From positions 1 to 38,146 of IMG/VR virus record IMGVR_UViG_3300028883_000022: a stretch of DNA of 38,146 nucleotides, one strand, 5' to 3'. The notes below the pieces were generated by a model, which had not been told where the DNA came from, searched no databases, and worked only from the letters and a program-made list of their open reading frames with translations. The position numbers and the translations under genes were made by a program. This DNA is from a virus. Below, one piece after another: positions 21,013 to 37,595 of this stretch (position 1 is its first letter; every line of letters begins with the position of its first letter).

Positions 21013-21942
21013 TCAGCTCTGCGTGTTCTCGATCAGGTAACCGGCGGTTTCGCAGGTCATGACCGGATCCAGGCGACTGAAAACCTCGTGCTTCATGCCG
21101 CCTTCTCCACCATCGGGATAGGCCCAGGAAGCAACCTGCCAGGGCTTGCCCTTCGGCATGTTCGCGAAGGAATAACCGAAGCTCAGGGTCTTGGGTCCGG
21201 GGTTCTCGGCCACATGCGCGATCACCACGCTTTCGCCCCACAGGGCGGTGAGAGTTTCGGTCTGGCCGTACTTGGTGCTGGCATAACCGGCGCCGGCCTC
21301 GATGACCCGCAGGCCCCACAGCACGGGCGGCAACCCGGAGCGCAGGATCGTGTTGGGATCCGTGTACTTCAGGATGTCCTTGACGTGGGGGTGCAACGCC
21401 AGAGCCTGGGCCGTGGCATAGGGGATCACCATCGTGTTGGCTTCCTTGAGGGTCGCGGAATAGATGGTGGTCTTGGCCGTACTCACGTCCGACTGGGGCG
21501 TGGAGTTGGTGTAGTCGTCCCATTCATGGGTAAGGCTGACGCTGTTGGTGTAGTTGCCAGAAGTGGTCAGCATACTTGCGACTTCATACTCATATTCCAG
21601 CATGAGTTTTTCGGTCAGGACTTCCACGGAATCGACATCGGGATCGCCGAAATCGCTTTCATTGCGGTCCAGATCGGTCACCACATCATGCAGGGCGTAC
21701 TCGTTACAGAAGTAAGAGCTGTCCGACAGGGTGTAGCTGACCCGGTTCGAGGGCGTTCCGTTCTGCCGGCGAGCCATGCTGCGGTGCAAGTTCTCCTTGC
21801 CGAACTCGTAATACTTGTTCGACTGTTTGGAAACGTACACCGGCGGCAGGATCTGCATGGCGGCAAATCCGGAGTTTGCGTATTTGATGCTGACTTCACT
21901 CAACGCGGCGTCAATGTGACGTTCTTGAGGGGTTCTCATCAT
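21013..21942 (-). CDS. Major capsid protein (309 aa)
   Basis: The protein following protease/scaffold and cement genes, preceded by AGGAGG. Has the order of the HK97 fold as seen in Mu-like capsids: N-arm (SEVSIKYANSGFAAMQILPP), E-loop-like part with YVSKQSNKYYEFGKENL, a long spine region and a C-terminal A-domain with TKYGQTETLTALWGES and FGYSFANMPKG. No separate delta domain is obvious because scaffold functions are in the protease fusion. Expected to form the icosahedral shell. Confidence 0.85.
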   Translation of the reverse strand: MMRTPQERHIDAALSEVSIKYANSGFAAMQILPPVYVSKQSNKYYEFGKENLHRSMARRQNGTPSNRVSYTLSDSSYFCNEYALHDVVTDLDRNESDFGDPDVDSVEVLTEKLMLEYEYEVASMLTTSGNYTNSVSLTHEWDDYTNSTPQSDVSTAKTTIYSATLKEANTMVIPYATAQALALHPHVKDILKYTDPNTILRSGLPPVLWGLRVIEAGAGYASTKYGQTETLTALWGESVVIAHVAENPGPKTLSFGYSFANMPKGKPWQVASWAYPDGGEGGMKHEVFSRLDPVMTCETAGYLIENTQS

Positions 21943-24727: not shown

Positions 24728-26419
24728 TCAGCCTCCCAGGCGAACAACCTTCACTTCGGCACCAATCACCTTGATGGCTTCATTGCCGGATACCGTTGAC
24801 GTGCTCCCCTGGATCTCCAGGAGATACTGCTTGTCGGTGGCAACCTCTTCCTCGGCAGTCAGCTCCGCTGCCGCATCGACATTGCCGTCAGCGGTGACCT
24901 GGGTGATCCCACCACCGGCCACGTCCGTAGTGGTGATGGGATTGGCCTTGTTCACCCGGACGAGTTTTGCATCCAGGGTCACTGTGTCCCCGGCTTCCTC
25001 ATGGACATCACCCACCAGCTTGTAGCTGATGATCCGGTCGCCTTCCTTGAGGAAATTCAGGGGCAGCCAGCATTTCTTGGAGGACAGGTTGTTGGCCAGG
25101 GTCGCTCCGGAAATGGCCGGCGTCCAATCGGTGCCGGGATTGGGATACTGGAAAGCATTTGCGAAGAACTCGCGAACGACGCGGTAGCCGGTGAAGGATC
25201 CCGTAACGGCGCCGTTGTTGTTGTTTGGCATCTCATCGGCCCAGATGGTGGGCGTCATGGAGGCCGGGCTCCACTTGCCGACACAGCCGATCTGGATCTG
25301 GCTGAAGTTGTCAAAGTCAGCGCTGGAGTCATCGGCATCGGCCACGATCATAAATCCGCCATCGGTCTCTGCCGTGAACTCGAAGATCTGTCCCGTTCCC
25401 TCGGCATCGATGGTGGCCAGGGTCTGGGTGCCGCCTTCGTCCTTGATCGTCCAGGTGCTCACCAGGTTGGCAACGTCCAGCGACAGCCGATACCGCTTGC
25501 CCACGGTTGTGGGGGCTTCGGTTGCGGCCAGCGTGCAATACTGATCGGCTGCATCCGCCGTGATGGTGAGATCACCGGTTTCGTTGTATGCGTTGATATC
25601 GTTGTTGGTCCAGTCGGAAGCGCCGCTGAAATCACGGTCCACCTGGTCGCCGATCAGCTCCGTGGCTGATGCACCGACGTACTTGAAGGGTATGTTGCCC
25701 TTGCGGATCTGGTCGCGCTCATCGGCTGAGAAACCCACCATATTGAACACGGCGGCATCGTAATACTGGCCACTGAATTCCTTGGTCACACCACCGGATT
25801 CCGTGCCAAAGCGCAGCACGCCAGCGCTGGAGAGGGTCTTGCTGGCCGTGGAGATCGCCACCGTGCCGGCACTGACACCATTCACATAGGCGGTGGCGTT
25901 CCCTGAGCGGTCAAACTCAACAAAAACATCAACATCCTGGCCTGCAGCGAATACACCGGTGCCGATCTTCCCGGAGACATCCTTCGTGTCGTCATCGCAG
26001 CGGATATACAGGTCATCCTCGCGCATCTCGAGGCCGTAACCCACGCCACCGGCTTCCTTGTTTGCCAGGTACTGGTTGGCAGCCGAGACGCCGTCGGGGC
26101 GGAATTTCAGGAAGATAGCGAAGTCGCCGGTACCGAAATCCAGATCCGCGTCATCGGCCACTTCGATATACTGGCTGGTGCCGTTCAGGTAGTAGCTGGA
26201 CACACGGCCGGCATTGATGGCGCTCTGCTCGTTAAGGATGTTGTATCCCAGGAAATCCAGATTGTCTTCGGGGACCAGGTTCACGTACAGGCCCGGGGTG
26301 CCGGTTGTCTTGAGGACTGCATTCAGCACCTGTTCCGTGCTGCGGTGGTAGACGCCCAGGGCGTCCACGTTGAGCACCATGCTCAGGATCTGCTCTACGC
26401 TGTAATAATCTTCGGCCAT
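24728..26419 (-). CDS. LamG-like adhesin sharing its N-terminus with the variable protein (563 aa)
   Basis: Residues 1-45 (DYYSVEQILSMVLNV, then YHRSTEQVLNAVL) match the N-terminus of the DGR target. A concanavalin/LamG-type domain follows (about 70-250), with YYLNGTSQYIEVADDADLDF and the typical FDRSGNATAYVNG strand pair. A second beta-sandwich (about 285-400, including RYRLSLDVANL and FDNFSQIQIGCVG) resembles a carbohydrate-binding module. A C-terminal beta domain ends in IKVIGAEVKVVRLGG. LamG domains bind sugars or peptides, so this looks like a second receptor-binding or head/tail-fibre protein. Preceded by GGAGGG; it lies directly after the RT-linked small genes. Confidence 0.75.
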   Translation of the reverse strand: MAEDYYSVEQILSMVLNVDALGVYHRSTEQVLNAVLKTTGTPGLYVNLVPEDNLDFLGYNILNEQSAINAGRVSSYYLNGTSQYIEVADDADLDFGTGDFAIFLKFRPDGVSAANQYLANKEAGGVGYGLEMREDDLYIRCDDDTKDVSGKIGTGVFAAGQDVDVFVEFDRSGNATAYVNGVSAGTVAISTASKTLSSAGVLRFGTESGGVTKEFSGQYYDAAVFNMVGFSADERDQIRKGNIPFKYVGASATELIGDQVDRDFSGASDWTNNDINAYNETGDLTITADAADQYCTLAATEAPTTVGKRYRLSLDVANLVSTWTIKDEGGTQTLATIDAEGTGQIFEFTAETDGGFMIVADADDSSADFDNFSQIQIGCVGKWSPASMTPTIWADEMPNNNNGAVTGSFTGYRVVREFFANAFQYPNPGTDWTPAISGATLANNLSSKKCWLPLNFLKEGDRIISYKLVGDVHEEAGDTVTLDAKLVRVNKANPITTTDVAGGGITQVTADGNVDAAAELTAEEEVATDKQYLLEIQGSTSTVSGNEAIKVIGAEVKVVRLGG

Positions 26420-26441: not shown

Positions 26442-26735
26442 TTAAGACAAACTGTAATACCTGTTAATTTTTCGGATTTTTGTGCAAAATGGGATTTCGT
26501 GGCCATAAGTGCTCATCTGATCAATTAGCACATCACTTCCAGTAAACAGTATTCGTGTTTGTTCATGCGCCTGAAACTGTAGCATGAGATACTTGCCCGA
26601 TTTATTTCGAGAATACCTACTGTTTTGAATTCTGAAACCCGTAACCACTATTTCCTCATCGACGATGTCGTCTATCCTTATCTTCTCACCATCAAGTGGG
26701 GCAGGATCTATCGAAAAATCCGAATAACACTTCAC
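26442..26735 (-). CDS. Small OB-fold-like protein coupled to the DGR RT (97 aa)
   Basis: Residues about 16-97 read like a five-stranded OB fold: EKIRIDDIVDEEIVVTGFRI, then SGKYLMLQFQ, ILFTGSDVLIDQM and IPFCTKIRKINRYYSLS. This pattern resembles small single-stranded-DNA-binding proteins of phages, though I cannot confirm it. It begins with GTG and overlaps the gene upstream as GTGA, which in turn overlaps the RT stop, so all three should be made from one translational unit. In a retroelement a cDNA-binding protein would be a natural partner. The region is AT-richer than its surroundings (about 38% GC in one 60-bp sample against 53% in the next gene). Confidence 0.65.
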   Translation of the reverse strand: MKCYSDFSIDPAPLDGEKIRIDDIVDEEIVVTGFRIQNSRYSRNKSGKYLMLQFQAHEQTRILFTGSDVLIDQMSTYGHEIPFCTKIRKINRYYSLS

Positions 26736-27052
26736 AACTCACTCAAGACCTCGTCAGCAATGATCTTGCAATTCCCGATGTATTCCCTGTATTCCACATA
26801 TTCCGGGTCGTTGGCGGGCAGCGCAACCATTGCAAACTCGTCATTGACATCGTACCTGTCCCGGACCAGTGTATCGATGATGGTTTTGCGACTAATCGGT
26901 TGAGCTAACTCGATGTAGTCGTAATCATAACGGATCTTGTCTAGCTCCTGCTCGTCCTGATATGCCACTTTTGTCACATTTATCCGAATCTGGATGTTTC
27001 CGTTTCGTTCAATGACCTTCTTGGGAAATCGCTTGCTGCTGCCTGACCTCAT
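26732..27052 (-). CDS. RT-linked hypothetical protein (106 aa)
   Basis: Starts MRSGSSKRFPKKVIERNGN at an ATG sharing the last A of the RT stop (TAATG), and ends in a GTGA overlap with the OB-like gene. Its first part is beta-rich and basic, then acidic and Tyr-rich (QELDKIRYDYDYIELAQP). The last part is helical, with IIDTLVRDRYDVNDEFAMVA followed by EYVEYREYIGNCKIIADEVL. It has no resemblance to the Avd four-helix protein of known DGRs. A similar helical motif occurs in small proteins next to phage tail fibres, so it could chaperone the adhesin; unproven. Confidence 0.65.
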   Translation of the reverse strand: MRSGSSKRFPKKVIERNGNIQIRINVTKVAYQDEQELDKIRYDYDYIELAQPISRKTIIDTLVRDRYDVNDEFAMVALPANDPEYVEYREYIGNCKIIADEVLSEL

Positions 27053-28005
27053 TATGATACTCCATATTTGTTTACAAGATTGTATGTGTCTGCCCACTTG
27101 AACCAGCCCCAGTAGCTCGGAATGCTCGTGGTTTGTCCGCTGGCTTGCTTGCGCTTAAAACGCTTAACGATTGATTTGCGGACCAGCGTGTACCCATGGA
27201 AGAATCTGTACCCTAAAAAGTCCAGGCCCCGGGCATCTACCGGAAACACCTGCCAGTTATCTTTCATCGTCAGGTTTAATCGGTCATTCAGATGGGTGTT
27301 TATCCTGCGGCGAATTCTGTGAAGACCAGCTTTATCTGGCGCAAGAATGACCATATCATCGCAGTAGCGAAAATAATAGCGACAGCTAAGTTCTTCTTTT
27401 ACCCAGTGATCGAAGTCAGATAAATAAAGATTCGCCAAATACTGACTTAGATAATTGCCAATCGGAAGACCCTTCGCACTATCGATAATTACATCAATCA
27501 GCCAGAGCAGATCCGCGTCCTTGATTTTTTTCCGGACGATCTTTTTTAGAATGTCGTTGTCCACTGATGGATAGAACTTTCTGATATCCATTTTCAGACA
27601 GTATCTTGTTCCTTCGTTGTCACGCATGGCCTGCTTCACCCGCTTAACGCCACGATGGACGCCCCGCCCCTTTATACTGGACCATGTATCCGCGATCAGC
27701 TGGCTGGTCCAAATAGGCTCTAGAACATTCATGATGGCATGATGGATAATGCGATCCGGATAATACGGGAGCTTCAATATCTCACGGGTTTTGCCATACT
27801 CGTTTCGCACCATGCGAGTGTATTTTGAGTTTTGAAAGGTTTTGTCCAGTAGCAGCTTTTGAATTTGTGCCAGATAGCGTTCTGGATTCGCATCGACCAT
27901 GCGCACTTCCGTGTAGTGCCGCTTGCCGCGTGAAGCGCGGCAATGAGCTTCGCGGAGATTTTCCATCGAACATACGGTCTGATATAAATTTCCGTGGCGT
28001 TTCAT
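27052..28005 (-). CDS. Diversity-generating retroelement reverse transcriptase (317 aa)
   Basis: Contains RT motifs in order: ILKLPYYPDRIIHHAIM (motif 1-2, residues 76-92), KMDIRKFYPSVDN (motif 3, catalytic D140), GLPIGNYLSQYLANLYL (motif 4, 179-195, with the DGR-type IGNxxSQ), YCDDMVILA (catalytic YxDD at 214-217), then LDFLGYRFF (motif 7, 261-269). Length and motif set fit DGR RTs rather than group II intron or retron RTs. There is no maturase or endonuclease domain. Its position after VR and TR on the same strand is the canonical order. The enzyme copies the TR RNA with errors at adenines and the cDNA replaces the VR. AT-richer than flanking genes, suggesting separate ancestry. Confidence 0.95.
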   Translation of the reverse strand: MKRHGNLYQTVCSMENLREAHCRASRGKRHYTEVRMVDANPERYLAQIQKLLLDKTFQNSKYTRMVRNEYGKTREILKLPYYPDRIIHHAIMNVLEPIWTSQLIADTWSSIKGRGVHRGVKRVKQAMRDNEGTRYCLKMDIRKFYPSVDNDILKKIVRKKIKDADLLWLIDVIIDSAKGLPIGNYLSQYLANLYLSDFDHWVKEELSCRYYFRYCDDMVILAPDKAGLHRIRRRINTHLNDRLNLTMKDNWQVFPVDARGLDFLGYRFFHGYTLVRKSIVKRFKRKQASGQTTSIPSYWGWFKWADTYNLVNKYGVS

Positions 28006-28115
28006 GGTGTGCTTGTGTTTGCCCGGAGCTTTCGATGCGCTATCGTTCTACTGGCACCTTTTGGGCTTGGTTTTGTGTTTTGCCAAGAGGCAGGGTGGGG
28101 ATGACTGAGATCTAC

Positions 28116-28231
28116 AAGCATAGCTGAGCCCCGATGTTCACATTGTCATTCGAAGATGCGTTATTCGCATTCACGTAGAACACGCCTGCATGCGCCGTGT
28201 TATTCGCGTTACTGCCCAATAGGAGCACCTG
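28116..28231 (-). repeat. DGR template repeat (TR)
   Basis: On the minus strand this 116-bp segment matches the VR at 28257-28372 at 95 positions. Of the 21 differences, 20 are adenines in this sense strand; TR contains 30 adenines, so two thirds of them differ. In the phase of the VR, TR has many AAC/AAT codons (asparagine), the usual mutable codons of DGRs. It lies 24 bp downstream of VR and 110 bp upstream of the RT start; that spacer (28006-28115) should contain the RNA elements needed for priming. Confidence 0.95.
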
Positions 28232-28252
28232 GTGCCATCCTTACCTTATGAG

Positions 28253-30133
28253 TTAAAAGCACAGCCGAGCCCCGACGCTCACATTGTCATCCGAAGACGC
28301 GTAATACGCAAGCACGCAGAACACGCCCGCACGCGCCGAGTCATACGCGCTACCGCCCAAGCGGAGCACCCGCCAGTCCTCGGAAAAGCCGCCTGATAAA
28401 TTGTCGTAATAGGTATAGAAATAGTCAGTGATCTTCGTCGAAGAGCTGGCCCCGACAGTGGCGGGCATAAAGCCGCGCATGGTTTGGATCAGCGTGTCCT
28501 GGTAATCATCAGACAGCGCCAGATCGCCGACGGCTTCATAGATAAGGGGTTTCAGGCTGACATCGTCAATCGTGAAGACTCCCTCGGTATCCGTTCCGCT
28601 CACGATACTTATTACAAAATCACTCGGAGACGAAGCGCTTGTGAACTCTACAATGTGAGTACCAGCAGTCAGCGGTAGCGATACGGCTTCAGCCGCAATC
28701 CCGGTTGTCAGCGTGGCGGCTCCGTCACCATCAAACGCCGTTGTAACAGCGACGGTGTAAGTCAGACGATAACGGGCACTTGGCGACATGGCGCTGTTGA
28801 AATCGCCAGATGCTTGAGTTGCCGTAGAGGTCTGGTTCGCCGTCCATGAGAACGCGAGATTGCCGCCGGAATCGTCCAGGTCGCCGGTGACATCCCAATT
28901 CGCATGGGTGGCGAAATCCGTTTCGGTAAGGACTTCCGTTCCCAGGATGTCGCCATCGTCCGCATATTCCGTCTCTTTGTTATGAACATATAAACGGCTG
29001 AAGGCACCGATCTCGTTATTGTAGACCACAGCACCGTCAATGAAATTCCAGGTATTGCCAAACAGGTTCTCAATCCCCCTGTATGTCATGTAGTCCTGAT
29101 ACGCCGCTTGTGATGTATCAATAGCTGATATGTTCAACTCGGCAGCGCGGTCGGTGGCGTTAGTGGCATTGCCGTCACCATTCGAGTAACCGCATGCCCC
29201 GATGTATTTCCCATTGCCCTGGTTCGCGGCTTCCCACGCGCCATTCGTAAACATGGTCCGGCCATTTCCGATCATGTCCTGACTGTTGAAGTCAGCATAT
29301 TCTACCAGGTAGAGTAGCTGGACAGCGCTCATCAGATCATAGTCCATGATGCGCCAGCCTGCTCCACGGGCAGAGGCGGCTGCACGAAACTCAGCACGGG
29401 TTTCATTTGTCTTGGGATACTCACCGGAGATCGAACAAAGCACATCTCCGGCAGCATACATATTTGTTTCAATATCAGCGTCACCCACCATTGCGCTGGC
29501 TGTATCGTCATACAGGCTGCCCTCGTAGGCACCGACATAACGGTAATCGACCTCATCGCCATCCTTGATGAACGCGGGGTGGACGGTAAACCCCTCAACG
29601 GGGCTGGCCGCTATATCCCAGGTGTGAGTATTGCTGGCGTAGCTGTAGCGATACCAGAACTTGGGGATTTGAACCATAACCTGACCATGACTCTGATCGT
29701 CTATGGTCGCATCCTCACCAGTGTCTTTTTTGGTTGAGTCAGTTGGATCAAGGAAATACAGCACATTTCCGGAGTCATCCAGGACACAGCGCTTCATGCC
29801 TTCCTGAACGGGCATGTACGCGGACGGCGATTCGCCCGTGTCCTGTCCGGCCAATGCTCCGGTGCGGGAATAGGCGTCAGTGGACTCGTTCCATGAAACG
29901 CCGTAATAGGGGGCGGCACTGATCCCACCATTTACAATCAGGTTTTTCACGTTCGTCAGGCTGTAATTACCAAAATCCAGATCGGCAGCCACCTGCAGGT
30001 CCACTGCAATAGCCGCCCGCGGCGAATCAAACACCGCATTGATGATGGATTCCGTGGAGCGGTGGACCGCACTGAATGCCACGTCCCCGGTGAGGACCTT
30101 GTTCAGGATCTGCTCGGTGTCATAGTGGCTCAT
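28253..30133 (-). CDS. DGR target: C-type-lectin (FGE-like) variable adhesin (626 aa)
   Basis: The ATG at 30133 follows GGAGG by seven bases. Residues 1-40 form a two-unit helical module (DTEQILNKVL and STESIINAVF) shared with the LamG adhesin. About 90-370 is the first part of a formylglycine-enzyme-like C-type lectin fold (MVQIPKFWYRY, RGIENLFGNTWNFIDG). An apparent beta-sandwich insertion follows (about 400-530, with SARYRLTYTVAVT and FTIDDVSLKP). The fold resumes (550-626) and ends WRVLRLGG and the VR. Such targets are cell-surface-binding proteins whose VR residues line the ligand site. Expected on the virion, recognising the host. Confidence 0.93.
   Translation of the reverse strand: MSHYDTEQILNKVLTGDVAFSAVHRSTESIINAVFDSPRAAIAVDLQVAADLDFGNYSLTNVKNLIVNGGISAAPYYGVSWNESTDAYSRTGALAGQDTGESPSAYMPVQEGMKRCVLDDSGNVLYFLDPTDSTKKDTGEDATIDDQSHGQVMVQIPKFWYRYSYASNTHTWDIAASPVEGFTVHPAFIKDGDEVDYRYVGAYEGSLYDDTASAMVGDADIETNMYAAGDVLCSISGEYPKTNETRAEFRAAASARGAGWRIMDYDLMSAVQLLYLVEYADFNSQDMIGNGRTMFTNGAWEAANQGNGKYIGACGYSNGDGNATNATDRAAELNISAIDTSQAAYQDYMTYRGIENLFGNTWNFIDGAVVYNNEIGAFSRLYVHNKETEYADDGDILGTEVLTETDFATHANWDVTGDLDDSGGNLAFSWTANQTSTATQASGDFNSAMSPSARYRLTYTVAVTTAFDGDGAATLTTGIAAEAVSLPLTAGTHIVEFTSASSPSDFVISIVSGTDTEGVFTIDDVSLKPLIYEAVGDLALSDDYQDTLIQTMRGFMPATVGASSSTKITDYFYTYYDNLSGGFSEDWRVLRLGGSAYDSARAGVFCVLAYYASSDDNVSVGARLCF
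28257..28372 (-). repeat. DGR variable repeat (VR)
   Basis: The last 39 codons (588-626) of the C-type-lectin-like gene. Sixteen residues differ from the translated TR: 588, 591, 594, 595, 597, 598, 599, 601, 606, 608, 610, 611, 615, 619, 620 and 623. The unchanged scaffold residues (AGVF, SS, DNV, GA, LC) match the lectin-fold ends of other DGR targets. Only five bases at the 3' end (TGCTT) remain identical past the last variable base, so the homing signal is short or lies elsewhere. Confidence 0.95.
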
Positions 30134-30135
30134 AT

Positions 30136-32364
30136 TCAATCCTCCAGGAATCCACCGTCCACGTCCGGGACGGTTTCGCTCTCGTTTTCAGTTCCGTCAT
30201 CAATTTCCCAGGTAAAGACCGGGACCTTGCTGCAGCGACAGTTATGATCCCAGGGCGGATCGTGGTGACGCCAGAAGTCATCGTCCTTGGCCCGGGTGAT
30301 CCCATGCAAAGCGGCATGGCGGTCTCGCACCCGGTCGTCAAGAATCGCCAGATAGCGGTAGCCCCAGATCGTGTTGGCCACGTCGGGATCATCGAACAGG
30401 TCGTTCTCCGCGTCCCGGAAAGACCGCATCATGGCATTCTGAAAGATCAGGCGGCTGCGCTCCGTCATCGCGCCACCCACCACCCAGTTGGCCTTTTGCG
30501 CATCGATGGCGGCGTCGAACTCGGACCAGGTCCAGCCCTCTTCCAGGCTGAGGCCGATCTGATCGAATACCTTCTCGATGTCCTGCTGGGTCATCCCCGA
30601 GACGGTGAAATACCGATCCGTGTAACGCTCGACCAGATCGTCAAATTGCTCCCGCGTGACAGGCACCAGACTTTTGAATGCGTCGAATGCTTCTTCCGGC
30701 GTGCCAAACCGCAGCGGTGGCATATCGTCGGCAAAGATCTTGACCTCGCCGGAGAGTTTGTGGGCCGTGTACATGCCAGCGAACCAGGACCAGATCCCGG
30801 CGGACAGCAGCGCCTTTTTCAAAGCGCCTACGTTTGCTCGGAAGCCGGGCAAAGACTCAAAGGCCTCCCCCTCGCTCAGCTTCTTCCGGATCTGCGCCGC
30901 AGCACTCTCGAATGCTTCGTCAAATACGGCGGCCTGCTCGCGCTGGATCCGGTCAACGAGCTTTTCCACAGCCTTCACCGCGGACAGCTGCTGTTTGTCC
31001 TTCGCGGGGGTCTCGTCAAATCGTTTCACGGGTTTGGACGGCTCACTGAAACTGGTGGCGCGGTTGTCAATGCCGCCAGCGGCGGCGGCCTCAACAGGCG
31101 TCAGGACGGTTTCGCCGTCGCGAGCCATGGGGATGTTCAGCTTTTTGTGCATCCATGAAGCCGGGATCTCCATGTTCCGAGTCAGCACATCCAGGTTCTG
31201 CATGATCACCACCATGTTTGGATCCGCGGCAAACACCAGCTGCGGGTATTCGTCCACCTGGTAGTTGAAATCCACCAGCCGGCGGATCAGCTGCTCGTTG
31301 ATGCAGGCGGCCAGCTGGCGGGCGTCGAAAGCCGTGTAATCTTCCAATGTGCTTAGGTGGGCCGTGCCCAGGGCATAGCTGCCCTGCCCGCGTTTGCCTT
31401 CCTCGGCGCTCAGGGTCTGCCCCACGATCTCCTTCGAGATCTCCTTGTTGCAGCGCTCGATGAAGTTGTCGTACTTCACATCACCGTTCCGGACCGCCTC
31501 CAGGAACTTTATATCGAAGCCTTCGGGAATCCGGATCCCGCTCTCGGCCTGCAGGGCCAGCAGTAGATCTTCAATGGCTGATTTGTCAGCCGGTGACGCA
31601 TTCCGCGGCGTGTTGGCCACAGCGGTGGGCATCCCGAACTTCTCGGCGTAAATCGCCCAGAACTGGCTGATGTTCTTTTTCAGCCATGCCCAGAATGCGA
31701 CCTTGGAAAGCGTCGGGTCGCCGTAGGGATTGTCGTCGTCGTCACCGTAAACGTAATGGATGAACTTGGAGCGTTGCAGCCGCTGGGCATTGCCCAGGGA
31801 GTATCGGTTCTCGGCGTACAAGATGCCGTCCGGTTTCAGCGCACCAAACTCGTCACAGTCGAAATGGTAATCCTGGACGGACTTGCGGCGCAGAGCCTTG
31901 ATCCCAACCATGCCATTGTATTTTCCGCCCTCGATATACTTCCAGACGATCTCTTCCAGCGCGAATCCGTAACCGATGGCCGTAAGCAATCCGCTCAGGT
32001 CCTGCTCGAATGCGCCTTCCATGTTGTCCAGCGCCCAGGACACAAATTCCGCGATCTTGCGATCCTTGAGCCTGTCACCGGCCGGCTGAATGACCCAGCC
32101 CCGGGCCAGCAATCGCTGCCGGCGGGTACGCAGCTGGCTGGATACATGGGTGTCCCTGCGGATTTTGTCCAGGTAGGCCATTCCCTTGCGCTTGATGAGC
32201 GTGTCGGGGTTCGTGTCCCCGATGGAATACTTGCTGAGCCGATCCACACCCGTCCGGCCGTATTCACTCAAATCCGGTTCTTTCTTTTTTTCGGCAAAGC
32301 TGCGATGAGTCTGCATTTCAAGAGATTTATGAACCGGGGCATTCATGGGATGAGGCAGTGTCAT
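30136..32364 (-). CDS. Portal protein fused to MuF-type head protein (742 aa)
   Basis: The N-terminal ~470 residues follow the Mu gp29-like (DUF935) portal pattern: VSSQLRTRRQRLLARGWVI, YGFALEEIVWKYIEGGKYN, and AIYAEKFGMPTAVANTPRNA. The C-terminal part (about 600-725) is a Phage Mu protein F-like domain with WTWSEFDAAIDAQKANWVVG and the hallmark DRVRDRHAALHG ... PPWDHNCRC. In most phages portal and MuF are separate; here they form one polypeptide, with a linker (about 470-530). The portal dodecamer is the DNA channel; MuF proteins are minor head proteins that enter with the DNA. Starts in a TGATG overlap with the terminase gene. Confidence 0.9.
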   Translation of the reverse strand: MTLPHPMNAPVHKSLEMQTHRSFAEKKKEPDLSEYGRTGVDRLSKYSIGDTNPDTLIKRKGMAYLDKIRRDTHVSSQLRTRRQRLLARGWVIQPAGDRLKDRKIAEFVSWALDNMEGAFEQDLSGLLTAIGYGFALEEIVWKYIEGGKYNGMVGIKALRRKSVQDYHFDCDEFGALKPDGILYAENRYSLGNAQRLQRSKFIHYVYGDDDDNPYGDPTLSKVAFWAWLKKNISQFWAIYAEKFGMPTAVANTPRNASPADKSAIEDLLLALQAESGIRIPEGFDIKFLEAVRNGDVKYDNFIERCNKEISKEIVGQTLSAEEGKRGQGSYALGTAHLSTLEDYTAFDARQLAACINEQLIRRLVDFNYQVDEYPQLVFAADPNMVVIMQNLDVLTRNMEIPASWMHKKLNIPMARDGETVLTPVEAAAAGGIDNRATSFSEPSKPVKRFDETPAKDKQQLSAVKAVEKLVDRIQREQAAVFDEAFESAAAQIRKKLSEGEAFESLPGFRANVGALKKALLSAGIWSWFAGMYTAHKLSGEVKIFADDMPPLRFGTPEEAFDAFKSLVPVTREQFDDLVERYTDRYFTVSGMTQQDIEKVFDQIGLSLEEGWTWSEFDAAIDAQKANWVVGGAMTERSRLIFQNAMMRSFRDAENDLFDDPDVANTIWGYRYLAILDDRVRDRHAALHGITRAKDDDFWRHHDPPWDHNCRCSKVPVFTWEIDDGTENESETVPDVDGGFLED

Positions 32365-33950
32365 CAAAACCTCTCGATGCTCAATTCTGAATGAAGATTG
32401 GCCTGCAGCTCGGTGGCAATCGATCGACGCGGCGTCTGGATCTGCCGGCGGCCGGTGGTGGCGATATCGCTGAGATCGATCTGGGCAACGGCCCGGTCGT
32501 GGGCACAGCCGGCAGCCATGGCCAGGCTGTCGAAATCATCATCGCCGATCTCTTTCTTGATGTATCCCAGGCTGGGGTAGCGGGCACCGGTTTTCTCGAT
32601 GCGCACATTCAACAGGTTCTGGATCAAGTGGTGAACGGCCATGGCGTGGGGATGGGTCTCCTGCCGATCGAAATACGGCAGCAGGATTTTGCCGGCCTCG
32701 AACTTGTTCCGCAGGTTGCTGGCCCAGTCCCATTTGTTCAGGCCGGTATTCCAGCGCGGCGCAAAATCCCAGTGATTCCAGTTTGACTGGCTATTTTCAG
32801 GGAACTGCTGCCGGTCTGTTCGGATCAGGTGCCGTTCATAGAGCATATCGTTGATATCGGCAATCAGATCCGGCTTCAGCGCGTCGCCGTAGCCTTCGCC
32901 GGCTCCGTAAAACTCCCAAAGATCCACAAACTCGCGCTTGACCTGGTTGGTGTCCGCCGTCGGTTTCCAGCGTTTGCCTCCCAGCCACATGATGGTCTCG
33001 CCGATCTGCTCGATAAACTGGGCGGAATAGTGCGAGCTCCCTTTTTTCTCGCCGGAATGCCCCATGTCCAGACCGGCGAACACCTGCCCCTGGGGCCGAT
33101 ACTGTTCACCCGGTAAATATTCGACACCCTGCCAGCCGATTCGCAGCGCCTGCTGTTGGCTGGCCATGATGTCGGGCTTCAGGATGAAATTCTTGGCTTC
33201 GGTAAATTGCAGCAGGTAGATGCGCTCCCATTCGTCACGGGAAAGACTCTGCTTGATGTCCGCGATATATTCCGGGCTGTAGTACCCCAGCTCGAGACCC
33301 ACGTAGACGTCCAGGTCCGCCAGGTTGTGGTAGCTGGGATCCTCGTAGATCTGGAAGATGTTGCCGCGGCCGGCCTGAATGGTGCCCGTCACGCGAATGC
33401 GGGTTGGCTTGCCGTTTCGGTTTGCGCCAGCGCCGCGATGCAGGATCCGGTGACGCCAGATGTCCAGGTCCATGTCATCGAATTCCTCGCCACGCAGGAT
33501 GGTGGCGTTTTCGCCTTCGAAATTGGAGCTCATTCCAAATGACTTGGCGTTGGACCGGTTCCAGAATTCGTAGCTGGTGGTGGAGAGCTGGCGCTTACCC
33601 TTCTTGGTCGCGATCCATGCGCTCAGGATCTGGGATGATTCGATGGCGTCCGTCTGGTAGCGTAGTGAGTTGATGGCCTGGTCGTATTTGGGCGCCCAGA
33701 TCCGGTAGTCCTCGAAGGGAGTCGTGGCGGTCTCGTAAAGTCCGGCCATTTCCACTTCCACGGTTTTTCCAAAGCGCGGCGGCGCCAGATCCAGAATTTT
33801 CGAATGCTCGAGGATCTCGCGAATGTTCACCATCTGGGTCGGGCGGGGTGTGAAATCACAAACATCCTTGAGCCACAGCAGCGGATCCGCGGCATAGCGC
33901 ATGACCGCCTGCTCGGCCTGATTGCGGACGCGGATCTGCGAGGCCTTCAT
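32364..33950 (-). CDS. terL: Terminase large subunit (528 aa)
   Basis: ATPase domain with Walker A variant LDLAPPRFGKT (about 53-63), Walker B around ILRGEEFDDMD (151-161) and coupling motif RVTGTIQAG (about 186-194). The nuclease domain begins QVFAGLDMGHSG (D295) and has a late acidic motif DDDFDSLAMA. The ATG at 33950 has GGGAAG seven bases upstream. The frame also extends upstream to a TTG at 34004 through a signal-peptide-like stretch (VFRIIILVALLLGSF), which is implausible for a cytoplasmic motor. It packages DNA into the prohead with the small subunit. Confidence 0.9.
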   Translation of the reverse strand: MKASQIRVRNQAEQAVMRYAADPLLWLKDVCDFTPRPTQMVNIREILEHSKILDLAPPRFGKTVEVEMAGLYETATTPFEDYRIWAPKYDQAINSLRYQTDAIESSQILSAWIATKKGKRQLSTTSYEFWNRSNAKSFGMSSNFEGENATILRGEEFDDMDLDIWRHRILHRGAGANRNGKPTRIRVTGTIQAGRGNIFQIYEDPSYHNLADLDVYVGLELGYYSPEYIADIKQSLSRDEWERIYLLQFTEAKNFILKPDIMASQQQALRIGWQGVEYLPGEQYRPQGQVFAGLDMGHSGEKKGSSHYSAQFIEQIGETIMWLGGKRWKPTADTNQVKREFVDLWEFYGAGEGYGDALKPDLIADINDMLYERHLIRTDRQQFPENSQSNWNHWDFAPRWNTGLNKWDWASNLRNKFEAGKILLPYFDRQETHPHAMAVHHLIQNLLNVRIEKTGARYPSLGYIKKEIGDDDFDSLAMAAGCAHDRAVAQIDLSDIATTGRRQIQTPRRSIATELQANLHSELSIERF

Positions 33951-35659: not shown

Positions 35660-36673
35660 TCACCTTCCGCGGCTCGATCTGTCCAGTTCCTTCTGGATCT
35701 TCACGAACCCGCGGTGCTCCCGCGGGGCCATCAGGCCAGACGTTGGTCCCTTGTCCAGCTGCGGGTCGCCGTAGAGATCCGCCAGGTGCACATAGCGGGT
35801 GGTCGTTTCGATGGAGGCATGCCCCATCCGCTGCCGCAGGATCTCCATGCTGGTGCCATTCACCACGGCATAGGTCCCGTAGAAATGCCGCAGCGCGTGC
35901 GGGTAGAGGGGCTTGTCCACCGGAGACCGTTCGATCAGGCGCTTTACCAGTGTGTAAACGCCACCCCTATGCATGTGTTTATTCACGATCCGCTTGCTGG
36001 AGGGATCCTGGGGGATGAATAGTGGATCTGCCGGCTTGGCCTTCATGTACAGCCGGCGATACTGCCAGTAGACGGTCCAGTATTCCGCGATGAGGGAATT
36101 TTCCGTCATCTTCGAAAACGGGATGATCCGCTCCCCGGTCTTCCCCCGGGCGATCAGCTTGAAATGATCCTTCTCCTGAGCAATACTGCTCATGGTGAGA
36201 TTCACCAGCTCCGATTCGCGAATGCCCGTATCCGCCAGCACACAGATGATGGCGGCATTGCGCATGGCAACAAATTTTCCCTGCTCCGTATTTTTATCAT
36301 GATGCGGCGGGATGGAGGCCGTCACCACGATCTGCACCAGCTCATTGGGCGTGATGAGCATGGGGTCCTTGACCTCCTCATGGGGAATGGATATCCTGGA
36401 GATCGGATTGGGCTTGCCCGGCCGCTGCCAGTCGTAATAGGTGCGCAATGCGATGAGCCGCAGGCGCTGGGTGTTGGCGGCCAGGTTGCGGACCTTCATG
36501 CTGGCAGCAAATTCCTCGAGGTCGTGATCGGTGGCATCTGCGGCCGGCGCTTCCAGAAATCTTTCCAACGATCTAAGCGCGTAAAAATAGTTCTCCGCAC
36601 TGGATGGCTTGAGGCCCAGGCGGCCGGTGAGATGGGTGCGGTATGCTTTCAGATGGTCATCGGTTGATTTCAT
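35660..36673 (-). CDS. Tyrosine recombinase, full length (337 aa)
   Basis: Complete two-domain recombinase. The core-binding domain spans residues 1-90 (DDHLKAYRTHLTGRLGLKPS, YALRSLERFLEAP). The catalytic domain has R152 (DTGIRESELVNL), K178 (ARGKTGERIIPF), H259-x-x-R262 (YPHALRHFYGTY), H285 (MGHASIETT) and Y294 (TRYVHL). It is XerC/D-like rather than like the phage integrase at 9615. The ATG overlaps the stop of the neighbouring recombinase by one base (TGATG), so the two should be made in equal amounts and may act as a heteromer. Expected to carry out site-specific recombination; its target is unknown. Confidence 0.9.
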   Translation of the reverse strand: MKSTDDHLKAYRTHLTGRLGLKPSSAENYFYALRSLERFLEAPAADATDHDLEEFAASMKVRNLAANTQRLRLIALRTYYDWQRPGKPNPISRISIPHEEVKDPMLITPNELVQIVVTASIPPHHDKNTEQGKFVAMRNAAIICVLADTGIRESELVNLTMSSIAQEKDHFKLIARGKTGERIIPFSKMTENSLIAEYWTVYWQYRRLYMKAKPADPLFIPQDPSSKRIVNKHMHRGGVYTLVKRLIERSPVDKPLYPHALRHFYGTYAVVNGTSMEILRQRMGHASIETTTRYVHLADLYGDPQLDKGPTSGLMAPREHRGFVKIQKELDRSSRGR

Positions 36674-37350
36674 CACATCACCTTTGGTAAAATGTCCTTG
36701 CTGCACAGGTGGAGGTAGCGCTCCGTGGTCTTCACGGACGTGTGCCCCGCCAATATCTTGACCTGCATCAGCGTCATGCCATGGTTGAGGCGGTGGGTAA
36801 GCTGCTGGTGACGGAACAGGTGCGGGAATACGCGCTTCTCCAGATCCGCGGCTTTGGCATAGCGTTTCACGATCTTGCCAACAGCCCGGGTGGTGAATGG
36901 CTTGTGATACATGGACTCGAACAGGTATTCCTGCCGCGAGGGGATCCCCTTCTGCATGTAAAGCAGCAGGTTGGTCTTGAATTCGGCGCTGAAATCGACG
37001 TAACGGTCCTTGTCGCCCTTGCCGGTAACGAAAATTGTGCGGTCCGGAATGTTGATGTCCTGGACCTTCACATTCACCAGCTCGGCCACGCGCATGGCGG
37101 TCTCGTACATGAGGCGCAGCATGATGTAGTGCATGGCATCGCCGCCCTTGAGAACGGCTGCGAAAAAAGCGTCCAGCTCATCCTCGCTGAGGAGCTTGGG
37201 CAGCCGGCGGCCGGTTGGCTTCGTCCGGACCAGCCCCACCTTTTGGCGGGCTTCTTTCACCACGTAGGGGATCTGCTCGTAGCTAAGCTCGTGCTTGCGG
37301 ATCAGTTTGACCAGGTCCCGAATGGCCGGCTGGAGGGGGTTGTCGCTCAT
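36673..37350 (-). CDS. Tyrosine recombinase, catalytic domain with short N-terminus (225 aa)
   Basis: Carries all catalytic residues: R87 (ETAMRVAELVN), K111/K114 (GKGDKDRYVDF), H177-x-x-R180 (FPHLFRHQQ), H203 (LAGHTSVKTT), Y212 (ERYLHL). Only about 50 residues precede the catalytic domain, so the normal core-binding domain is largely missing. It may depend on the full-length recombinase encoded directly downstream. The ATG at 37350 overlaps the upstream stop (ATGA); a start at 37410 would overlap the neighbour and adds an unlikely leader. Confidence 0.88.
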   Translation of the reverse strand: MSDNPLQPAIRDLVKLIRKHELSYEQIPYVVKEARQKVGLVRTKPTGRRLPKLLSEDELDAFFAAVLKGGDAMHYIMLRLMYETAMRVAELVNVKVQDINIPDRTIFVTGKGDKDRYVDFSAEFKTNLLLYMQKGIPSRQEYLFESMYHKPFTTRAVGKIVKRYAKAADLEKRVFPHLFRHQQLTHRLNHGMTLMQVKILAGHTSVKTTERYLHLCSKDILPKVM

Positions 37351-37595
37351 GTGAACAGACTCTTCTGATTGGGGTCTTCCACCTGTTTCTCGTCCTTCCT
37401 CATTGAGCAATCCGGATCGTGGCTTTCGATTGATACCGGGAACTCTGTTTCGAACTGGCGAACACGGAGTCCTTCCTTCGTGAAATCGATCGTATCCTGC
37501 TTGAAGCTCTTATCATCACCCCAGTGGACTGCAGCAGCGATTCGAGCACCACACTCCGGGCAGCGGCCTTCGACGTATAGCCTTTTCTCAGCCAT
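37347..37595 (-). CDS. Small zinc-binding protein (82 aa)
   Basis: Contains CPECG near the N-terminus (residues 12-16) and a second Cys late (about 63, PDCSM), with alternating strands (GLRVRQFETEFPVSI). Looks like a small zinc-ribbon fold with an acidic tail. Overlaps the coiled-coil gene by eight bases and the recombinase by ATGA. Function unknown. Confidence 0.7.
   Translation of the reverse strand: MAEKRLYVEGRCPECGARIAAAVHWGDDKSFKQDTIDFTKEGLRVRQFETEFPVSIESHDPDCSMRKDEKQVEDPNQKSLFT

Follow-up and report, generated by a model that had tools for sequence, protein, structure and literature searches.

An Avd-less diversity-generating retroelement in a probably temperate phage, with a candidate OB-fold partner and adenine changes that depend on the neighbouring base

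Organization of the retroelement

The window, that is the whole stretch of DNA analysed here, comprises 38,146 nucleotides (positions 1 to 38,146 of IMG/VR virus record IMGVR_UViG_3300028883_000022). It carries a diversity-generating retroelement (DGR) in the gene order target (with the VR), TR, reverse transcriptase (RT), the TR being non-coding and located between target and RT. The features are as follows:

28253..30133, minus strand: target, tail/receptor-binding protein of 626 aa with ATG at 30133 (phrog_5302 tail protein, E 3e-86)
28257..28372, minus strand: VR, final 116 nt of the target coding sequence before the stop
28257..28275, minus strand: approximate IMH at the VR 3′ end (variability lost between positions 95 and 111)
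28116..28231, minus strand: TR (repeat alignment with VR; relatives)
28116..28134, minus strand: approximate IMH* at the TR 3′ end (same column comparison)
28005..28097, minus strand: RT-17 RNA (Rfam RF03020; 51 bits against a gathering threshold of 40.4)
27052..28005, minus strand: DGR RT of 317 aa (RVT_1, E 5e-16; phrog_1423, E 1e-121; motifs IGNYLSQ and YCDD)
26732..27064, minus strand: orf110, 110 aa counted from its ATG, a small conserved gene that immediately follows the RT
26442..26735, minus strand: orf97, 97 aa, predicted OB-fold, candidate DGR accessory (RT linkage, AlphaFold, fold matches)

An earlier note on this DNA had placed a complete element within 28116-30133. TR, VR and target do lie inside these bounds, which exclude the RT as well as the accessory gene downstream of it.

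On the minus strand, TR (28231-28116) and VR (28372-28257) align without gaps over 116 nt each and differ at 21 positions. Twenty of the 30 TR adenines are changed in the VR (13 to G, 5 to T and 2 to C), altering 16 residues with respect to the TR. The sole non-A difference, 1 in 86 non-A positions, is a T to G at repeat position 11. The probability of at least 20 of 21 differences falling on adenines is 2.8e-11 (binomial, 30/116). Our recount thus returned the figures of the earlier note, both for differences and for changed residues. Both strands of the whole window were searched for a third TR/VR copy and none was found. The VR-TR spacer of 25-30 nt, read by eye, showed no clear BPP-1-like hairpin stem after the VR.

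The RT frame is open. IGNYLSQ corresponds to the DGR form of motif 4 (GxxxSQ) and YCDD fits YxDD; assignment of the RT to the DGR class rests on this GxxxSQ motif and on the phrog_1423 match. Compared with its relatives, the RT is 70% identical in protein and about 65% in nucleotide sequence, and this excess of protein over nucleotide identity indicates that it is under constraint.

The DGR identity proposed earlier is borne out by A-specific divergence, an RT with DGR motifs, a lectin-fold target, a fixed difference between IMH and IMH*, and the target-TR-RT order. The phage had also been called temperate, which is supported because the window contains two tyrosine recombinases. Altogether we are confident that the element is a genuine, intact and functional Avd-less DGR belonging to a known lineage.

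The target protein

A profile built from 20 target homologues matched the Thermus aquaticus DGR protein TaqVP (5VF4; E 2.7e-6) over the C-terminal half, VR included, and 5VF4 was also ranked first by Foldseek. Because profile and Foldseek both point to the same protein, the lectin fold that had been attributed to the target is supported: its C-terminus appears to be a C-type-lectin-like domain carrying the VR, the VR region of the target's own predicted model being poor (pLDDT <50). An insert of about 110 aa (residues ~400-525; 28555-28930) is absent from close relatives. Below the DGR protein, matches to the whole model include carbohydrate-binding modules (8xmz), which plausibly match this insert.

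VR diversity in related contigs

An RT-based search retrieved 80 viral loci. With an ungapped repeat scan tolerating adenine mismatches only, a TR/VR pair bearing the A-specific signature was detected in about 70 of them, and the eleven closest relatives have the same layout as the window. Comparison of VRs in related phages, as proposed in the earlier note, gave differences mostly at TR adenines. Six contigs (L002-L007) carry an identical 951-nt RT and an identical TR, and their VRs, five complete and one partial, are all different. The ten pairwise comparisons of the five complete VRs yielded 166 differences, 144 of them at TR A. Between the VRs of L009 and L010 there are 17 differences, all 17 at TR adenines. 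Because VRs differ on an identical RT and TR, these sequences show natural retrohoming in the sister group, and hence a lineage that diversifies in nature.

Another proposal was a database search for the TR: the window's exact TR was absent from the other viral contigs searched and no near-identical contigs of the same phage were found. Since this TR was found nowhere else, we infer activity in this very phage from the sister contigs, the phage itself contributing a single VR from one genome.

In several relatives (L023-L036, L063), one TR feeds two or three VRs carried by small neighbouring genes.

The 3′ boundary of the transferred tract

Twelve VRs were then compared column by column. Most TR adenines vary freely. 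Position 95 is variable, position 97 is almost always G, and position 111, in a TAT context, is G in 12/12 VRs and A in 12/12 TRs. As position 95 varies and position 111 is fixed, although the RT would be expected to vary TAT, the transferred tract should end between about 95 and 111. From this comparison of sequences, the last ~19 nt of the repeats would act as IMH and IMH*.

Adenine changes follow the 3′ neighbour

The same comparison revealed adenines that are G in nearly all twelve VRs: positions 2, 19, 42, 45 and 107, all in CAG context, and also 97 and 111. Position 45 is silent and flanked by freely varying adenines. For a count of contexts, the RT search supplied 75 TR/VR pairs and the orf97 search described below a further 76. 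In pairs of the window lineage, A before G became G in 311 of 347 cases (~90%). At four-fold degenerate third positions this was so in 72 of 75 cases, compared with 4 of 31 where the silent adenine precedes A or T (p 9e-18). Adenines before C were converted to G or left unchanged, while before T or A all four bases occurred.

For comparison, 49 TR/VR pairs of BPP-1-type DGRs were fetched. In these, A before G became G only about half the time (15/29, ~50%; Fisher p 1.6e-6 against the window lineage), and at silent sites in 6 of 11 cases (Fisher p 6e-4 against 72/75). Conversely, A before C became C more often in the BPP-1 type (12%) than in the window lineage (4%; p 4e-8). That the 3′ neighbour affects errors of the BPP-1 bRT is already known, and the elevated G misincorporation reported for this enzyme at NAC agrees with our A-before-C result (PMC12875486). 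The near-deterministic edit at NAG and the difference between lineages appear to be new within the literature accessible to us.

Whether or not a locus has orf97, the context rule and the mutation spectrum are the same. The rule must therefore belong to the RT or its RNA, and orf97 was rejected as the cause of the A-to-G context bias.

These results modify the reading of the window's own VR. The A-specificity of the earlier note holds, but the view that all 20 A changes are random variation does not: about 6 of the 20 are context-driven, constrained or part of the IMH, being G in nearly all relatives' VRs. Position 111 belongs to the IMH, 97 is G in almost every VR, and 2, 19, 45 and 107 are each followed by G; none of these provides evidence of random mutation, whereas about 14 of the 20 changes do. 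The claimed absence of other drift stands in so far as only one non-A change exists; this change belongs to a recurrent class and is not plain drift, T to G being the commonest non-A change in all three pair sets, and T11G recurring in L004 and L005, which share one TR.

A structured spacer RNA between TR and RT

The match to RT-17 fills the gap between TR and RT up to the RT start codon. Among the relatives scanned, RT-17 was found at the same place in eleven, and RT-18 in three. In an alignment of 14 spacers, three helices were obtained with 98.8% of cells paired and double compensatory changes in 11 of 13 pairs. The covariation score was reached by 0 of 500 shuffles and slid versions collapsed. 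A structural signal was seen in the alignment but not on folding the window spacer as a single sequence (z 0.63). Judging from the BPP-1 spacer, the RT probably binds and primes at the RT-17 spacer. Both Rfam families, RT-17 and RT-18, can be assigned to DGR RNAs.

A small protein, orf97, linked to DGR RTs

Avd (PF22296, phrog_3206) was not detected above cut-off in the window or in 48 related records, whereas the BPP-1 positive control was found. Among 49 orf97-bearing records, there was likewise no Avd above cut-off and one sub-threshold match. Conversely, the 67 BPP-1-type loci included 61 with Avd and none with orf97.

Homologues of orf97 are present in 42 of the 80 RT-related loci, mostly directly after the RT. 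The HMM iteration used to collect them included a length cut, and an unfiltered version, which drifted into RT ORFs, was discarded. As a blind test, viral and genome contigs were searched with the orf97 alignment alone, without reference to RTs. The query was an 11-row alignment, a 34-row alignment being too diverse for searching; a single-sequence search with the window's orf97 gave no matches. A DGR-type RT was present in the fetched flank of 112 of the 116 orf97 loci, with GxxxSQ in 109 of these RTs; some contigs are shared with the RT set or among the 116 loci, so that the independent number is nearer 100. The four exceptions are diverse. L147 keeps a remnant of an RT at the edge of its contig, and L091 begins at a contig end. 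L193 (2945-4282), an Alphaproteobacterial locus, has a VR/TR pair and orf97, with a DGR-type RT encoded at another place in the genome, so that this DGR possibly acts in trans. In L171 (4001-4270), a Clostridium contig, an orf97 homologue was found with no RT or TR/VR pair nearby.

The position of orf97 is not constant. It follows the RT in most loci, lies between TR and RT in Alphaproteobacteria, and occupies the BPP-1 Avd slot between VR and TR in six loci (L016, L043, L071, L124, L151 and L172, the last from Methanogenium cariaci). With three different slots, linkage of orf97 follows the DGR and not a fixed gene order.

AlphaFold predicted orf97 with pLDDT 92 and the strand order of a five-stranded OB barrel, with a helix between strands 3 and 4. 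The top structural matches are mostly OB-folds (SSB, PriB, RPA, POT1) at moderate Z of 4-7, all <8. The predicted fold thus resembles SSB/PriB/RPA-type OB-folds (SSB 3lgj, Z 6.5; PriB 5wqv, Z 5.9), from which orf97 differs in having no sequence similarity to them. No Pfam or NCBIfam family fits orf97. Eighteen of 34 relatives matched phrog_19665, of unknown function, the window's own orf97 being below threshold. Its pI is 6.7, compared with 9.6 for Avd. According to a 2023 paper (PMC10053308), one DGR-associated protein from Wu et al. 2018 has no Pfam family, and orf97 may be that accessory.

Since about half of the 80 RT relatives lack orf97 and the spectrum is unchanged, orf97 is not needed for A-specific errors. 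We nevertheless think it likely that orf97 is a functional part of the DGR, and it possibly does the job of Avd in this element.

The neighbouring orf110 was also considered as an Avd replacement, as it follows the RT, but was set aside: its distant relatives in phrog_11557, of unknown function, look like tail-module genes, and orf110 is probably one as well.

Alternative explanations

Three other readings were weighed against these data. The bias at A before G might reflect selection or gene conversion at the VR and not RT chemistry, as a change at some of the sites concerned, near the repeat ends, alters the residue (Gln to Arg, Ser to Gly). We hold this to be highly improbable, because the bias persists where third positions are four-fold degenerate, in the middle of the repeat and at sites flanked by adenines that vary freely. 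The DGR could also be decayed or frozen, its VR recording past mutagenesis and the element being now inactive in this phage, of which there is one genome, activity being seen only in relatives whose RT is about 65% identical in nucleotide sequence. The integrity of RT, TR and VR, the single change over 86 non-A positions, the constraint visible in the RT protein and the paired structure retained by the spacer RNA make this very unlikely and favour a functional element.

As for orf97, it sits within the tail gene cluster, roughly half of the RT relatives do not have it, and its presence leaves the error spectrum unchanged, as would be expected of a neutral tail-module gene merely neighbouring the DGR, which orf110 may be. 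That reading seems unlikely in view of the RT-blind search, where loci flanked by a DGR-type RT included genomic contigs of Alphaproteobacteria and Methanogenium, and in view of the three slots that orf97 occupies relative to VR, TR and RT. In addition, both phage records with an orf97 homologue, ANMV-1 and vir525, have it adjoining the DGR RT. A dedicated DGR protein remains the better account of orf97.

Comparison with known DGRs

As a DGR the element is ordinary, the Avd-less kind being known from crAss-like phages. In the part of PMC7290462 available to us, the DGR of crAss-like phages (crAssphage LMMB, RT lineage 3) shares with the window the order target-VR-TR-RT, a C-type lectin target and the absence of avd, and that same part names no accessory protein beside the RT, whereas the window has orf97. 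Matches to the window RT in the phage collection had crAss-like records on top, at 43-50%. Unlike these, the phage of the window is 38 kb in size, encodes two integrases and has a portal of the Mu type.

The Bordetella phage BPP-1 resembles the window in A-specific mutagenic homing, in a VR that forms the end of a tail protein with lectin fold, in IMH/IMH* and in a spacer between TR and RT. It has Avd, unlike the window, and its RT is 36% identical. The DGR of ANMV-1 (PMC4372165) carries an orf97 homologue, AJP62065.1, directly after the RT, as in the window lineage; ANMV-1 differs in being an archaeal virus, and AJP62065.1 is annotated as a hypothetical protein only.

Proposed mechanism and implications

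We propose that TR and RT-17 spacer are transcribed as a single RNA. The RT would bind the structured spacer and reverse-transcribe the TR, making its errors where the template has adenine. Upstream of the fixed 3′ IMH, the resulting cDNA would take the place of the VR. At the lectin-fold tip of the tail protein, as many as 16 residues or more could change in this way, and receptor binding would thus probably be altered. The error at an adenine would be set by the base copied just before: nearly always A-to-G after G, mostly A-to-G or unchanged after C, and all four bases after A or U. The orf97 protein could be a dedicated accessory, probably binding TR RNA or cDNA during synthesis or transfer, as Avd in BPP-1.

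With DGRs, nature offers a means of hypermutating proteins in a targeted way. As a small OB-fold protein tied to DGR RTs in three slots, orf97 is a direct candidate for a part in how the Avd-less ones make and deliver their cDNA. We tentatively suggest, as a proposal about which we have slightly more doubt than belief, a class of DGRs, widespread among bacteria, archaea and their viruses, in which an uncharacterised OB-fold protein stands in for Avd as the partner that binds nucleic acid and A-before-G edits are near-deterministic. Its new parts would be the OB-fold partner, which could be the Wu et al. 2018 family, and the lineage-specific error code. If this is true, every template specifies fixed recodings together with free diversification. 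Given a lineage-specific neighbour rule, the TR can be read as a program in which AAY codons specify open variation and A before G near-fixed edits. The rule also changes the way in which recent activity should be judged from VR/TR mismatch counts, and it bears on template design for directed evolution.

Other genes in the window

The two tyrosine recombinase genes (35660-37410) are adjacent and share a strand; a SAM-like domain is present at the N-terminus of one product and absent from the other. They possibly represent a split or paired integrase system. A single ORF of 743 aa (30136-32367) encodes a Mu-type portal fused to a Mu F-like minor head domain. Directly downstream of orf97 lies a ConA/laminin-G-like protein of 563 aa (24728-26419), for which no relatives were found in the viral collection. 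The major head protein (21013-21942) had one distant relative (25%) in the IMG/VR search, and the phage backbone is therefore poorly sampled.
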